Assembly: GCA_944385665.1 (NCBI GenBank)
Contig: CALWYB010000022.1
Span: forward strand, 1-38,557
DNA from: an uncultured Oscillospiraceae bacterium
GTDB lineage: Bacteria > Bacillota > Clostridia > Oscillospirales > Oscillospiraceae
Length of the DNA: 38,557 nucleotides
Reading direction: 5' to 3'
In this document: positions 20,336-24,660 of the stretch, one piece after another
Numbering within the stretch: the stretch's first letter is position 1
Layout of the letters: each line of letters starts with the position of its first letter
Notes under the pieces: generated by a model
Databases searched by the model: none
Seen by the model: only the letters and a program-made list of their open reading frames with translations
What the model was told of the DNA's origin: nothing
Position numbers and translations under genes: made by a program

Positions 20336-20360
20336 AAAGATGACCGCATGACAATCGAGC

Positions 20361-20456
20361 ACAGGGGCGCTGGAAGCTTTTCCGGCTGAGATGCAAAGGC
20401 GAATAGGCCGCCTTCGGTCCCTTACACCTGATCCGGGTAATGCCGGCGTAGGAAGT
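20361..20456 (+). ncRNA. TPP riboswitch (THI box) of thiT
   Basis: All conserved THI-box elements are present: GGGGCGC opening P2, GGCTGAGA in J3/2 (20394-20401), ACACCTGATCCGGGTAATG and CCGGCGTAGGAAG (to 20456). The 3' part binds the pyrophosphate and the TGAGA part binds the pyrimidine. High TPP should favour the downstream terminator (20488-20533) and switch off thiT and the HAD gene. Confidence 0.95.
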
Positions 20457-20487
20457 GAACGGACTGTGGATTCCTGTCGTTTCTTTC

Positions 20488-20533
20488 GTACCGCACTGCA
20501 CCCGCTTGGATGTGTTGCGGTACAACGTTTTTT
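20488..20533 (+). terminator. Expression-platform terminator of the thiT riboswitch
   Basis: The stem GTACCGCA/TGCGGTAC (20488-20495 with 20516-20523) is followed by AACG and six Ts. It lies between the aptamer and the thiT ribosome binding site (GGAGGA, 20535-20540), which suggests transcriptional control. Confidence 0.8.
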
Positions 20534-20547
20534 CGGAGGAAACGACG

Positions 20548-21153
20548 ATGAATCAAACAGCTGCGACCCGGCGGTCCCGGTCCATCCGCCTGCGCCGTCT
20601 GGTGGAAAGCGCTATGATGCTGGCCATCGCCGCGGTGCTGAGCATGTTCCCCTTCCAGGGACCCTGGGCGCTGGGAGGCGGGATCACCGTGTGCTCCATG
20701 CTGCCCCTGGTGGTGCTGTCCTGGCGGTATGGCTGTAAGTGGGGCGTGTTTGCCGCCTTTGTGTACAGCCTTCTGCAGATAGTGCTGGGCATCCAAAACG
20801 TACAGTATGCCGACAGCGTGCCCACCGCCATTCTAATTATCCTCTTTGACTATGTGCTGGCTTTCTCGGTCATTGGACTGGCCGGCATGTTCCATGGCCG
20901 GCTGGGCAATTTCCGCCTGGAACTGGTACTGGGGATCGTGATCACCTTCCTGGTGCGCCTGGCGTGCCACTACGTCTCCGGCGTGGTGGTGTGGGAGGTG
21001 TTGTGGCCCAACGAGCTGGGCTGGGCCGCCCCCATTTGGTCTATCGCCTATAACGCCAGCTATATGATTCCGGAAATCATCCTGACCTCCCTGGTGGCGG
21101 CGCTGTCCTACGGCCCGCTGAAACGGTATTATCAGGGACAGGACCTGAACTGA
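20548..21153 (+). CDS. thiT: Thiamine ECF transporter S component ThiT
   Basis: A 201-residue membrane protein with six predicted helices, the substrate-binding subunit of an energy-coupling-factor transporter; the ATPase and EcfT subunits must come from elsewhere. The ThiT-type motif GGGITVCSMLPLVVLSWRYG, and the aromatic residues near the C-terminal half (WEVLWPNELGW), fit thiamine binding. The upstream TPP riboswitch independently supports thiamine as substrate. The start ATG 20548 follows GGAGGA. It is followed after 31 bases by the HAD gene in the same operon. Confidence 0.93.
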   Translation: MNQTAATRRSRSIRLRRLVESAMMLAIAAVLSMFPFQGPWALGGGITVCSMLPLVVLSWRYGCKWGVFAAFVYSLLQIVLGIQNVQYADSVPTAILIILFDYVLAFSVIGLAGMFHGRLGNFRLELVLGIVITFLVRLACHYVSGVVVWEVLWPNELGWAAPIWSIAYNASYMIPEIILTSLVAALSYGPLKRYYQGQDLN

Positions 21154-21184: not shown

Positions 21185-22009
21185 ATGGGTAAATTTGACG
21201 GTCTGCTGCTGGTCAGTGACTTTGACGACACCTTATACGATTCCCACCACCGGGTGCCGCCCCGCAACCTGGCAGCCATCCACTACTGGCTGCGGGAGGG
21301 GGGCCGGTTCACCGTGGCCACCGGACGGGCCTACACCACCTTCGCCCCTTATTTCCACCTGGCGCCCATCAACGCCCCGGTGGTGCTGTCCAACGGCTCG
21401 GCCATCTACGACTTCCACACCCACACCATGCTGGTGGAGACCCAGCTGGACCCCCGGGCGCCCCGGGACTTCCAGGCTCTGATGGACGCCATTCCGTCTC
21501 TGGGCATGGAGGCCTACCACGGGGAGGACATCTACGTCTTTCGGCCCAATGAGGTGACCTACGGCCATATGCGCAAGGTGGGCACGGACTATACCGTGTC
21601 CCCCATCTCCGAGATGCCCACCCCCTGGAACAAGGTCATCGTCCAGCAGGAGTACGACCAGCTTTTGAAGGCCCGCGCCTGGTTGGAGGAGCACTGCCCG
21701 GAGCGGTACGAGGCCATCTTCTCCAACCGCTACTACCTGGAGATCACCCGCCGAGGCTGCAACAAGGGCGGGATGGTGGAGCGCCTCATTGACATGCTGG
21801 GGGTGGAGCGGGAAAATCTCTACTGCGTGGGGGACAACCAGAACGACATTCCCATGATGGTCCTCTCCGCCATCCCCTTCGCCCCGGCCAACTGCGCCCA
21901 GGAGGTGAAGGACTGGGGAGCCCAGCTGCTGTGCCACTGCGACGAGGGGGTCATCGGCGACATCGTGGAGATTCTGGACCGGAAGTATGGAGGTTCTCCC
22001 GCCCTCTAA
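21185..22009 (+). CDS. HAD-superfamily Cof-type phosphatase in the thiamine operon
   Basis: A 274-residue HAD hydrolase with a C2B-type cap. Motif I is SDFDDT (nucleophile D12, acid D14), motif II VLSNGSA, motif III lysine in the NKVIVQQ/CNKGGM region, and motif IV GDNQNDIPM. Cof-type enzymes dephosphorylate sugar phosphates, pyridoxal phosphate or thiamine-pathway phosphates. Its place after thiT under a TPP riboswitch makes a phosphorylated thiamine or precursor a reasonable guess, but no substrate can be read from sequence. The ribosome binding site AGAGAGG precedes ATG 21185. Confidence 0.8.
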   Translation: MGKFDGLLLVSDFDDTLYDSHHRVPPRNLAAIHYWLREGGRFTVATGRAYTTFAPYFHLAPINAPVVLSNGSAIYDFHTHTMLVETQLDPRAPRDFQALMDAIPSLGMEAYHGEDIYVFRPNEVTYGHMRKVGTDYTVSPISEMPTPWNKVIVQQEYDQLLKARAWLEEHCPERYEAIFSNRYYLEITRRGCNKGGMVERLIDMLGVERENLYCVGDNQNDIPMMVLSAIPFAPANCAQEVKDWGAQLLCHCDEGVIGDIVEILDRKYGGSPAL

Positions 22010-22018
22010 AAATAGGGA

Positions 22019-22047
22019 TTGACAAAGGGAGAGAGCAGGCAGATAAT
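22019..22047 (+). promoter_or_regulatory. Promoter of the thiW-thiM-thiE leader
   Basis: A perfect TTGACA (22019-22024) and GATAAT (22042-22047) with a 17-base spacer, ahead of the second TPP aptamer. Confidence 0.7.
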
Positions 22048-22093
22048 AAAGGCGTCCCGGAAAAACACCGGGACACTCTTCCAGCCAAAAAGA

Positions 22094-22172
22094 GAATGGG
22101 GAGCGCTCAGGCGCTGAGAGGAAGTTCGGCTTCGACCCAGAAACCTGATGCGGATCATGCCGCCGTAGGGAT
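22094..22172 (+). ncRNA. TPP riboswitch (THI box) of the thiWME operon
   Basis: The aptamer contains GGGGAGCGC, the P3 stem AGCGC/GCGCT, TGAGA (22115-22119), an extra small hairpin GAAG/CTTC, ACCTGAT and a P4 stem GCGG/CCGC around ATCATG, then CGTAGGGATG. A preceding hairpin GTCCCGG/CCGGGAC (22053-22075) lies in the leader. The expression platform is the terminator at 22195-22227. Confidence 0.93.
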
Positions 22173-22194
22173 GTGGACGGCTCTTTGTACGTCC

Positions 22195-22227
22195 GGGCGT
22201 GCCTGCGGCACGCCCTTTTTGTTTTTT
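22195..22227 (+). terminator. Terminator of the second TPP riboswitch
   Basis: The stem GGGCGTGCC/GGCACGCCC with a TGC loop (22195-22215) is followed by TTTTTGTTTTTT. It lies directly after the aptamer and about 260 bases before thiW. Confidence 0.9.
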
Positions 22228-22313
22228 GGCGGGAAGCGCGAGGAGGGACTGCTTTGCGGCAGGCCGAGGGGGAGCGCCCTGGGCCTGTGTCCGGCCTTGT
22301 GGACAACTGGACA

Positions 22314-22400
22314 GCGATGGGAGGCCGTGTTCCGGCATGAGAGGAAGCCAGCAAGCTTCGACCGACCCGACCCGGCCATGTTCCGGGCGGGGGCTCCGCG
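22314..22400 (+). ncRNA. Diverged THI-box-like domain in the thiW leader
   Basis: This stretch repeats the architecture of the TPP aptamer at 22094-22172. It has a P3 stem GCCG/CGGC (22324-22336), an intact TGAGAGGAAG (22338-22347) and a hairpin GAAGC/GCTTC in the same place as GAAG/CTTC, followed by CGACC. Next come CCCGAC where the aptamer has CCTGAT, a P4 stem CCCGG/CCGGG around CCATGTT, and CGGGGG where the aptamer has CGTAGGG. The distance from TGAGA to the last block is 50 bases against 49. Stems are kept while the normally invariant pyrophosphate-sensing bases differ. It could be a decayed duplicate or a variant with other specificity. Confidence 0.45.
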
Positions 22401-22445
22401 GCGCCGGGAGACCGGCGTGGAGGAGGGCTGTCCTTGTGGGATCTC

Positions 22446-22487
22446 ACTCCTTTTCCGCGGAAGCGTTTGGAAAAAGGAGTCTTTTTT
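22446..22487 (+). terminator. Terminator-like hairpin that also covers the thiW ribosome binding site
   Basis: ACTCCTTTTCC (22446-22456) pairs with GGAAAAAGGAGT (22469-22480, one bulged A), followed by CTTTTTT directly against the ATG at 22488. The 3' arm contains AAGGAG, the thiW ribosome binding site. The hairpin could therefore act as an intrinsic terminator, a translational block, or both. Confidence 0.7.
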
Positions 22488-23207
22488 ATGAAACGAAACC
22501 CCTCTCTTCTGCGTCTGGTGACCCTGGCCATGTTGATTGCCGTGGGCGTGGTCATCTCCCCCATCCTCCGGGTGGAGGGCATGTGCCCCACCGCCCACCT
22601 CATCAACATCGTGTGCGCGGTGCTGCTGGGGCCGGTGTATTCCTTTGTGTGCGCCTGCCTCATCGGCATCATCCGCATGAGCCTGATGGGAATTCCGCCT
22701 CTGGCCCTCACCGGAGCGGTATTTGGCGCGGCTCTGTCCGGCATCCTCTACCGCCTCAGCGGCGGGCGGCTTATCTTCGCCGTCATCGGAGAGGTGGTGG
22801 GCACCGGCATCATCGGCGCGGTGGCCTCCTACCCGGTGATGACCCTGTGGTGGGGCTACACGGGCCTTACCTGGGTGTACTATGTGCCCTCCTTCATCGC
22901 CGGCACCCTCATCGGCGGCAGCGTGGCATTCCTGCTTTTGAAGAAGCTGGCCAAAAACGGCATGCTGCTGAAAATGCAGCGGGACCTGGGGGCCAAGGTG
23001 TTTGACCGCCCGGTCACCGTGGCGGGGGACAGCATGGGCATCGTGTTTTTGGGTGTGATCGCCTACCTGGCGGTGCTGGTGCTGGTAAAGAATGTGCTGA
23101 AGGCCGGCGGCGCGGCCATGGCCCTGCCCTGGGTGGTGCTGGCTCTGTTTGCCGCTGTGGCTGCCTACTATTATATTTCCCATCGAAAGGAGAGCGTCAA
23201 CGCATGA
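22488..23207 (+). CDS. thiW: ECF transporter S component ThiW (thiazole uptake)
   Basis: A 239-residue membrane protein. The first 160 residues match the ThiW type (LVTLAMLIAVGVVISPILRVEGMCPTAH, LLGPVYSFVCACLIGIIRM, GEVVGTGIIGA). ThiW is predicted to bring in hydroxyethylthiazole, the substrate of ThiM encoded next. The C-terminal 75 residues with two more hydrophobic segments (about 185-230) go beyond the usual ThiW length of about 160. The start is ATG 22488; the stop overlaps thiM by four bases (ATGA). Confidence 0.88.
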   Translation: MKRNPSLLRLVTLAMLIAVGVVISPILRVEGMCPTAHLINIVCAVLLGPVYSFVCACLIGIIRMSLMGIPPLALTGAVFGAALSGILYRLSGGRLIFAVIGEVVGTGIIGAVASYPVMTLWWGYTGLTWVYYVPSFIAGTLIGGSVAFLLLKKLAKNGMLLKMQRDLGAKVFDRPVTVAGDSMGIVFLGVIAYLAVLVLVKNVLKAGGAAMALPWVVLALFAAVAAYYYISHRKESVNA

Positions 23208-24022
23208 GCAAGTCCCTGGGCGCGCTGCTGGAGGCGCTGCGAAGCCGCCGGCCCCTCATTCACTGCATTACCAACCCCATCTCCATCAACGACTGCGCCA
23301 ATCTGATCCTGGCGGCAGGGGGACGGCCCATCATGGCCGAGCACCCCAAAGAAGTGGCTGAAATCACCGCCACCGCCGCCGCCTTGGCGGTGAACCTGGG
23401 CAACATTACCGACGTGCGCATGGAGTCCATGGTTCTGGCCGGACAGGCGGCCCGGGAAGCGGGGGTGCCGGTGGTGCTGGACTGTGTGGGCGTGGGGTGC
23501 AGCACCCTGCGCCGGCGCTACGCCCAGGACTATCTGACCAAGATCCAGCCCCAGGTGGTCAAGGGGAATCTGTCGGAACTTCTCTGTCTGTGCGGGGCGC
23601 GCCAGCATACGTCCGGCGTGGACGCCGACGGCAGCGACCGGCTGGAGGGAGAGAACCTCTCCGCTCTCCAGGCGTTCAGCCGCCGCCAGGGGGCGGTGCT
23701 GCTGGCCTCGGGGACGGTGGACGGGGTGTTTGCCCCCCACGGGCGGTACTGGGAGATCCGCAACGGTCACCCCATGATGGGCCGCCTAACCGGCACGGGC
23801 TGTATGCTCAATGTGCTCACCGCCGCCTTTTTGGCGGTGGGAGAGCCGGAGGAGGCGGCAGTGGCCGCAGCCGCCATGCTGGGGGTATGCGGCGAGCGGG
23901 CGGCCCAGAAGGCCAAGGGACCGGGGAGTCTGCGCACCCGGCTGCTGGATGAGGTCTATGCCCTCACCCCGGAGGAACTGGAGCGGGAAGCGGCGGTGGC
24001 CGGCTCTGTGGAGAAAGGATGA
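23204..24022 (+). CDS. thiM: Hydroxyethylthiazole kinase
   Basis: Phosphorylates hydroxyethylthiazole for thiamine salvage. A 272-residue protein with the N-terminal family motif RPLIHCITNPISINDCANLI, the RIPIM-like GGRPIMAEH, and the GTGCMLNVLTAAFLAVG motif (about 197-213) that forms the anion hole and catalytic site. It overlaps thiW at its start and is followed directly by thiE, forming one operon under the leader at 22019-22487. Confidence 0.96.
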   Translation: MSKSLGALLEALRSRRPLIHCITNPISINDCANLILAAGGRPIMAEHPKEVAEITATAAALAVNLGNITDVRMESMVLAGQAAREAGVPVVLDCVGVGCSTLRRRYAQDYLTKIQPQVVKGNLSELLCLCGARQHTSGVDADGSDRLEGENLSALQAFSRRQGAVLLASGTVDGVFAPHGRYWEIRNGHPMMGRLTGTGCMLNVLTAAFLAVGEPEEAAVAAAAMLGVCGERAAQKAKGPGSLRTRLLDEVYALTPEELEREAAVAGSVEKG

Positions 24023-24027
24023 AACGT

Positions 24028-24660
24028 ATGAACCCTGTGGATCTGAAGCTGTACCTGGTGACGGACAGCGGATACTACGACGAGAAGCGGTTTTTGGACA
24101 TGGTGGAGCAGGCCTGCCGGGGGGGCGTGACCCTCTTGCAGCTGCGGGAGAAGAACCGGGGCGGTCGGGACTATCTGCGCCTGGCCCAGGCGGTGAAGGA
24201 GATCACCGACCCCTTCCATGTGCCCCTCATCATTGACGACCGGGTGGACGTGGCTCTGGCCTGCGGGGCGGCGGGGGCCCATGTGGGCCAGACCGACCTG
24301 CCGGTGTGGGCGGCCCGGAAGCTGATGGGTCCGGACAAGATCGTGGGAGCCACCGCCAAGACGGTGCCCCAGGCCCGGGAGGCCTATGAGCAGGGGGCGG
24401 ACTATCTGGGGGTGGGAGCTCTGTTTCCCACCGAGACCAAGGTGAACACCGTCCTCACCTCCATTGACACGCTGAAGGACATTGTGAAGGCCGTACCCAT
24501 CGGCGTGGTGGGCATCGGCGGTCTGGATGAGAGCAACGTAGACATCCTCACCGGCAGCGGCGCCAAGGGCGGCGCTGTGGTGCGGGCCATCGTCAAGGCC
24601 CAGGACCCGGAGAGGGCTGCCCGCCGCCTGCGGGACAAGCTGAACACCATTTTGAAGTAA
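24028..24660 (+). CDS. thiE: Thiamine phosphate synthase
   Basis: Joins HMP-PP and thiazole phosphate to thiamine phosphate. A 210-residue TIM-barrel protein with the expected motifs [40 protein letters not shown] and [14 protein letters not shown] 24019 overlaps the thiM stop, but GAAAGGA (24012-24018) is correctly spaced only for ATG 24028. No thiC, thiG, thiD or thiL is in the window, so the operon covers the thiazole branch of salvage only. Confidence 0.95.

Follow-up and report, generated by a model that had tools for sequence, protein, structure and literature searches.

The question raised by this locus is what kind of RNA occupies the stretch between a complete TPP riboswitch and the thiW gene that follows it. 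The DNA analyzed here (the window, 38,557 nt in full) belongs to an uncultured Oscillospiraceae bacterium (contig CALWYB010000022.1, assembly GCA_944385665.1). An earlier note on this DNA had described a second, diverged THI-box-like domain at 22314–22400, behind a complete TPP riboswitch and its terminator, and had proposed either a decaying duplicate or a variant aptamer. The upstream riboswitch could be confirmed with RF00059, and a terminator-like hairpin was found behind it by pattern scan (Table 1), which returned three such sites in the thiW leader region against 2.3 in shuffled sequences. The sequence TGAGAGGAAG, located in the second segment at 22338–22347, occurred exactly twice in the window compared to 0.07 expected from shuffles. 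When 801 bases of the leader were searched at E ≤ 10, neither RF00059 nor any other Rfam 15 family matched the second segment, which answers the low-threshold search that had been suggested for it. Weak leader matches to mir-598, CRISPR-DR66, SorX, suhB, and Acido-Lenti-1 were all below gathering and were read as chance.

Other thiamin-related features could be seen nearby. Another complete TPP riboswitch (20353–20471, 58.0 bits) precedes a thiT-like thiamin transporter gene (20455–21153; TIGR02357 103.9 bits, slightly below the cut-off of 108.45). A Cof-type HAD phosphatase gene (21185–22009) is placed between thiT and the thiW leader, and it matched the HMP-PP phosphatase model weakly, under the cut-off.

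Table 1. Positions of the leader features and genes of the thiW operon in the window
Feature	Position	Strand	Basis
Sigma-70-like promoter of the thiW leader, TTGACA-17-GATAAT	22019–22047	+	Consensus scan only, 11/12 matches
TPP riboswitch aptamer, first of the tandem	22087–22188	+	RF00059, 58.8 bits, gathering 54.3
Terminator-like hairpin (22195–22215) and T-rich tail of the TPP riboswitch	22195–22222	+	Pattern scan only
Conserved 5' hairpin, loop GGAGCG at 22271–22276	22259–22285	+	Alignment, covariation, loop counts
Variable linker	22286–22308	+	Length differs between loci
P1 5' strand, GGACAGC	22309–22315	+	P1 score ≥ 6 in 56/98 leaders, shuffled mean 15.2
P2 5' strand, GGGA	22319–22322	+	First two G pair with CC at 22362–22363
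P3 hairpin, GCCG-UGUUC-CGGC	22324–22336	+	Both sides changed in 3/4 pairs; 100% of cells paired
J3/2, UGAGAG, sequence as in the pyrimidine pocket of the TPP aptamer	22338–22343	+	Base counts
P3a hairpin, GAAGC/GCUUC	22344–22359	+	Both sides changed in 5/5 pairs; 99% of cells paired
GACCG, last block of the conserved core	22360–22364	+	ACC in 101/101
Variable region with hairpins, including CCCGG/CCGGG	22365–22426	+	No shared sequence seen across loci; 56/63 identical to G012
P1 3' strand, GCUGUCC	22427–22433	+	7-bp complement of 22309–22315; 7/7 identical in G012
Alternative helix F, 22416–22427 with 22448–22459, formed around most of the P1 3' strand	22416–22459	+	Helix search
Hairpin S (ACUCCUUUUCC / GGAAAAAGGAGU), covering the Shine-Dalgarno sequence, six U after it	22446–22487	+	Minimum-energy fold; terminator-stem scan
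thiW, ECF S component, predicted regulated gene	22488–23207	+	TIGR02359 118.7 bits, cut-off 84.35; PF09512
thiM, hydroxyethylthiazole kinase	23204–24022	+	NF006830 264.5 bits, cut-off 180
thiE, thiamine phosphate synthase	24019–24660	+	TIGR00693 205.5 bits, cut-off 145.1

The element in the window consisted of 175 nt (22259–22433), beginning with the 5' hairpin and ending with the 3' strand of P1, and the switch as a whole extended to 22490. Its parts follow each other as a 5' hairpin with a GGAGCG loop, a variable linker, and the string GCGA(U)GGGA-P3-UGAGA-GG-P3a-GACCG, which P1 closes in many cases. The stems described in the earlier note are present, namely P3 (GCCG/CGGC), the intact TGAGAGGAAG, the GAAGC/GCTTC hairpin, and then CCCGG/CCGGG. 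The proposed extent, however, covers the core and misses the 5' hairpin and P1. The CCCGG/CCGGG stem had been read as P4, but it lies in a stretch where no sequence shared among relatives was seen, so the similar spacing to the P4/P5 domain of TPP aptamers is not meaningful. Base counts in 101 leaders revealed an invariant GAGC in the 5' hairpin loop (101/101), a nearly invariant GCGA at 22314–22317 (101, 101, 99, and 101 of 101), and a UGAGA junction in which the U, the second G, and both A were each found in 101/101 and the first G in 100/101. In GGGA and GACC, too, the bases were invariant or almost invariant. The P3 loop was mostly UGUUU or UGUUC. GCGA and the 3' strand of P1 were considered, by eye only, as pairing partners of the GGAGCG loop, an idea dropped because GGAGCU loops keep GCGA.

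At least 101 distinct leaders from Clostridia and other classes of the phylum carry the element. Comparison of the window's ThiW with genome contigs gave 47 loci, of which 32 carried the same element in the leader and 15 did not; the genomes of 99 relatives contained 22 ThiW-like loci, evenly divided between leaders with the element (11) and without it (11). A covariance model built from the element (R1) found one strong copy in the window's own genome, together with two TPP riboswitches scoring 19.3 and 14.9 bits; three other matches reached at most 13.1 bits. Searches of 391 genomes from the class and 398 from the phylum separated element matches, at 69 bits or higher, from all others, which scored at most 49.3 bits; element matches occurred in 18 genomes of the class and 6 of the phylum, with the window's own genome and G133 present in both sets. 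Searches at a stricter E-value, which repeat some genomes counted before, returned 27 matches in 26 of 295 genomes of the order and 19 matches in 16 of 61 genomes around G851 (lowest match, 56.6 bits). No element could be detected by regular expression in 28 of 72 loci, and R1 found nothing above 42.1 bits in the same 28 besides the positive controls (L002 and L054), with the weak matches only partly checked against Rfam. A search that covered six genomes gave no new locus. Two alignments were prepared, A1 with 39 elements and A2 with 101; two near-copies (L055, L071), one locus with the same element as L176 (L177), and two with a long P3a (L085, L155) were left out of A2.

The alignments demonstrated strong covariation. 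Across the 101 leaders, 97.3% of 1919 cells were paired and 16 of the 19 pairs had changed on both sides, and the covariation score of 0.644, which 0/500 shuffles reached, exceeded the shuffled value of 0.212 and that of slid versions of the structure (at most 0.139). The 39-sequence alignment gave similar values (97.6% of cells paired; score 0.606 compared to 0.218 when shuffled). All eight pairs of the 5' hairpin (helix 1) had changed on both sides, with 94.3% of cells paired. Both G-C pairs of P2 were invariant in 101/101 leaders, so P2 is conserved but offers no changes from which covariation could be read. When run unaided, RNAalifold drew the 5' hairpin, P3, and P3a together with one doubtful extra pair and left P2 undrawn. 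P1 stood outside the 19-pair count, and it also coevolves: in 59 leaders, the mean pairing score was 6.54 with the leader's own 5' strand compared to 4.81 with swapped strands (maximum of 100 swaps, 5.19). Of P3 and P4, for which a covariation test had been suggested, P3 covaried, while the supposed P4 lies in the unconserved stretch.

These results bear directly on the two readings proposed at the outset. The core strongly resembles the pyrimidine half found in clostridial TPP aptamers, the neighboring copy included, as would be expected of a riboswitch copy that had been altered or was decaying. Such an origin is nevertheless rejected in view of 101 leaders with near-invariant loop and junction bases, compensatory changes, and a common extra hairpin. 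Against the closest relative, G012, the 5' hairpin was identical at 27/27 positions and the core at 60/61, compared to 20/30 in the stretch before the hairpin and 14/19 in the linker. Related thiW leaders therefore show conservation of this segment and no random degeneration, and the variant aptamer is the proposal that held up. The element is a strong candidate for, and most probably represents, a new class of riboswitch that arose from the TPP aptamer.

The similarity to the TPP aptamer can be traced to one half of that RNA. By sequence, the element core is a homologue of its pyrimidine-sensor half, which comprises P2, P3, the UGAGA junction, and P3a, and it closely resembles this half in clostridial TPP aptamers, including the neighboring one. 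R1 itself reflected this likeness, as all 36 weak-match loci that were fetched, which are a part of the weak matches, carried a TPP riboswitch at that place by Rfam scan (36/36); 34 were above the RF00059 gathering threshold and two had 53.0 and 52.2 bits compared to 54.3. The other half is a different matter. The exact pyrophosphate-sensor signature CTGAT...GTAGG was found within 95 nt after the core in 0/101 elements, and with one mismatch in 3/101, compared to 82 of 115 TPP-half sites with the exact signature. The earlier description, in which a THI box had changes in P4 and in its loop bases, fails on this count; what remains of the second THI-box-like segment is a conserved, TPP-like core within a larger unit that contains neither a THI box nor P4/P5. 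RF00059 gathering was likewise missed at the element in 40/40 strong loci, in 15 further element loci, and in L106. Of the features that define RF00059, the pyrimidine-sensor half with P2, P3, UGAGA, P3a, and ACC was found in the element, but neither the gathering score nor the P4/P5 pyrophosphate half was, and the element is not counted as an RF00059 member because of these two.

In E. coli TPP structures, the HMP ring is supported by a G19-G42-A47 triple and by A41 on G18-C48, as given in the available part of PMC3764141. By our own mapping, these residue numbers would fall on the pyrimidine half of the element. The UGAGA sequence and its surroundings also build a k-junction in the TPP riboswitch, which lies in the same half and, in the available part of PMC10573300, is said not to bind the ligand itself. 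Part of the conservation may consequently be structural.

The position of the element among thiamin genes was examined next to its TPP neighbors. Of 57 element loci scanned with Rfam at gathering, 36 had a TPP riboswitch no more than approximately 200 nt before the element; these were the window, 4/15, 13/20, 0/1 (L106), and 18/20 by batch. A relaxed regular expression placed a TPP site upstream in 46/101, a rough figure that misses L031, L137, L143, L144, and L154, where Rfam found one; its downstream TPP match in L145 was false on checking. Other arrangements could also be observed. The element of L004 (1185–1271) lies between two TPP riboswitches (1001–1107 and 1301–1408), L138 carries a triple tandem of two consecutive TPP riboswitches followed by the element (1503–1938), and L092 has a direct tandem of two TPP riboswitches (273–545).

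Among 21 strong loci other than the window's own, the next gene was ThiW-like in 20 and thiM in L078 by inspection, and the proteins of four of these loci, plus L012, were run against NCBIfam. A further 42 loci included six before a PhnD-like lipoprotein gene and two before a ThiL-ThiN fusion; the remaining 34 appear by inspection to precede thiW or thiM. In L175 and L182, thiW-thiM-thiE-thiD-cytX-like genes follow the element (CytX by NCBIfam, the others by eye). The fusion gene adjoins the element in L179 (2105–3703) and also in L171 and L172. Its product joins an AIRS/ThiL-like domain to ThiN (thiamine-phosphate synthase; PF10120, 1e-31) and is by sequence a putative TMP synthase fused to a TMP-kinase-like domain.

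A PhnD-type lipoprotein gene follows a sub-form of the element in L178 (1977–5297), L180, L181, L158, L159, L173, L174, and L176; this sub-form has mostly a GGAGCU loop and a similar linker near AUGACC. The lipoprotein matched PF12974 (8e-35), with TIGR01098 under its cut-off, and matched the TPP-binding lipoprotein model weakly (30 bits, cut-off 225). PhnC- and PhnE-like genes adjoin it in all three neighborhoods read (L178, L180, and L181), and the transporter is a candidate importer of thiamin phosphate or a precursor. All contexts thus consist of thiamin genes, with the PhnD-type transporter plausibly among them, and a thiamin-pathway ligand other than TPP fits them. With thiW and thiM as the most common neighbors, the element could instead be a sensor of HET or HET-P that gives feedback on thiazole uptake and phosphorylation. 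We consider this improbable, as it leaves the retained HMP pocket unexplained except as a k-junction scaffold, and it fits the ThiL-ThiN and PhnD-type contexts less well.

A new riboswitch class that grips the HMP ring remains the favored reading, and the ligand is probably a metabolite that carries this ring, with thiamin or TMP as the first choice and HMP-PP as the second. The kept HMP pocket, the lost pyrophosphate sensor, the tandem position after a TPP riboswitch, and the neighboring genes all point to an HMP-bearing metabolite other than TPP. Which of these is preferred depends on polarity: OFF logic would point to thiamin or TMP and ON logic to HMP-PP.

In the window, P1 and hairpin S are compatible, and both are part of the minimum-energy fold. 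If helix F formed, its loop would contain most of the P1 3' strand and hairpin S would be broken; S is a candidate Shine-Dalgarno sequestor or terminator according to the predicted fold. Among 98 leaders, the number with P1 exceeded the shuffled maximum of 24 (Table 1), and a P1 scoring at least 6 was not found in 42. P1 together with an F of at least 8 occurred in 38 (shuffled mean 3.1, maximum 10), and P1, F, and an overlapping S in 14 (shuffled mean 1.0, maximum 2), where the comparison used 30 dinucleotide shuffles of the leader tails. The leaders are related, so these excesses are not independent events and some are counted more than once. These counts supersede an earlier, smaller F/S count of 8/36 leaders with P1 (41 start codons found among 62 elements). 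A general feature of riboswitches, a conserved aptamer-like core joined to mutually exclusive helices of an expression platform, was thereby found in excess over shuffles.

P1 acting as an anti-antiterminator is a textbook layout. The P1/F/S arrangement corresponds to it and predicts that the ligand turns thiW off; under this simplest reading of the folds, the window element would be an OFF switch, which we judge fairly probable. Other leaders differ. The terminator stem is formed from the 5' strands of P1-P2-P3 over 14 bp in L066 and 13 bp in L070 and over 7 bp in L041 and L043. Weak terminator-like stems reach into the core in L013, L032, L083, L090, L158, and L173 among 88 elements scanned. 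Stems of these kinds predict ON switches, unlike the window. Constrained folds of 38 leaders showed Shine-Dalgarno access falling by more than 0.1 in 8 and rising in 4, with little change in 26, the window included. GCGA is conserved beyond what pairing needs, and P1 may on that account compete with the aptamer instead of closing it.

The ON-type leaders give weight to a rival in which the element is a second, structurally unrelated HMP-PP class, where the pocket and the 5' hairpin bind HMP-PP and HET supply is turned on when TPP is low, in the manner of the thiS-motif riboswitch. The terminators of L066 and L070 predict this polarity, and the aptamer could hold the invariant GCGA so that P1 forms only without ligand. 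The position after a TPP riboswitch and before thiW, as well as the gene logic, resembles that of the thiS motif, as far as the available parts of PMC6478431 and PMC6429828 describe it. The gene content of the host is also relevant. ThiC was present in the window's genome with no ThiG match, so that the bacterium apparently synthesizes HMP and depends on HET from outside, as this rival would expect, but neither enzyme was matched in G012, the closest relative, where the absence of a ThiC match speaks against it. A full ThiC was found in 17 of 27 genomes with the element (plus one fragment) compared to 4 of 23 others (plus one broken gene), and a strong ThiG in 5 of 27 compared to 4 of 23; the 23 were hand-picked and most were not searched with R1, which makes this a weak association only. 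The P1/F/S arrangement is most simply ligand-OFF, and the known HMP-PP class is a compact hairpin embedded in a terminator, unlike the element. Taken together, we regard a second HMP-PP class as unlikely, though it deserves serious attention.

The explanation that we favor with moderate confidence is a cis-regulatory RNA under conservation that most likely forms an undescribed class of riboswitch, in which half of the TPP aptamer is combined with a new 5' hairpin. The aptamer would re-use the pyrimidine-sensor half, and the GGAGCG 5' hairpin would replace the pyrophosphate sensor (P4/P5). The window element, second in tandem after the TPP riboswitch, would control thiazole salvage through thiW-thiM-thiE. 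Its ligand would come from the thiamin pathway and carry the HMP ring, but would be a compound other than TPP; thiamin and TMP are the preferred candidates. Binding would stabilize P1 and exclude helix F, and hairpin S could then cover the Shine-Dalgarno sequence or terminate transcription, leaving thiW off. Together with the TPP riboswitch, the element would form a NOT-TPP-AND-NOT-X gate. A leader that binds a regulatory protein instead of a metabolite is compatible with all results, but given the half-TPP pocket and the order in tandem a small molecule is the likelier input, and we hold such a leader to be quite improbable.

We find it reasonably probable that the elements form a modular class, in which the HMP-gripping half is kept and the GGAGC hairpin swapped in, which senses thiamin, TMP, or HMP-PP in series with the TPP riboswitch, and of which a sub-form controls the PhnD-type transporter and the ThiL-ThiN fusion. 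If so, the element would be a natural case of a modular aptamer whose specificity changed by keeping one half and exchanging the other, and would offer a route to testing how half of a TPP pocket can be turned toward unphosphorylated thiamin or a precursor. Thiamin salvage in Clostridia and their relatives would then respond to a second input beside TPP, and an uncharacterized PhnD-type transporter would be tied to thiamin metabolism and marked as a thiamin-phosphate importer. With R1 and the 101-sequence alignment, the element is already searchable.

A description of the element was not found in the titles and abstract openings of the literature searched, a scope that lies outside preprints, supplements, and most subscription journals, nor in the available parts of PMC8632094, PMC10043782, and PMC7266159. 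Compared to RF00059, the element shares P2 with GGG(G)A...ACC, P3, the UGAGA junction, P3a, the association with thiamin genes, and often the same leader. Unlike RF00059, it is without P4/P5 and the CUGAU/GUAGGGA sequences and has a conserved 5' GGAGCG hairpin and a GCGA(U) before P2.

The thiS-motif HMP-PP riboswitch (Stav 2019, Atilho 2019) is alike in its place before HET-P genes and sometimes after a TPP riboswitch. Approximately 30% of thiS motifs follow TPP riboswitches, and they control HET-P-related genes including thiW, according to the available parts of PMC6478431 and PMC6429828. That motif, however, is a single compact terminator hairpin embedding its aptamer, whereas the window element has 175 nt, a separate Shine-Dalgarno or terminator hairpin S, and a TPP-like core; alike in position and genes, the element is set apart by architecture and is not the thiS motif. 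Some TPP-class RNAs favor thiamin or thiamin monophosphate, and these relatives with altered specificity, mentioned for tandem leaders in the available part of PMC9481103, resemble the element. They are counted in the TPP class and so presumably keep its fold, a comparison made by description only, and the element may be identical to them. The DUF-3268 k-junction RNA, whose function is stated as unknown in the available part of PMC10573300, also has the TPP k-junction described there, but the likeness of the element to the TPP riboswitch takes in the whole pyrimidine-sensor half.
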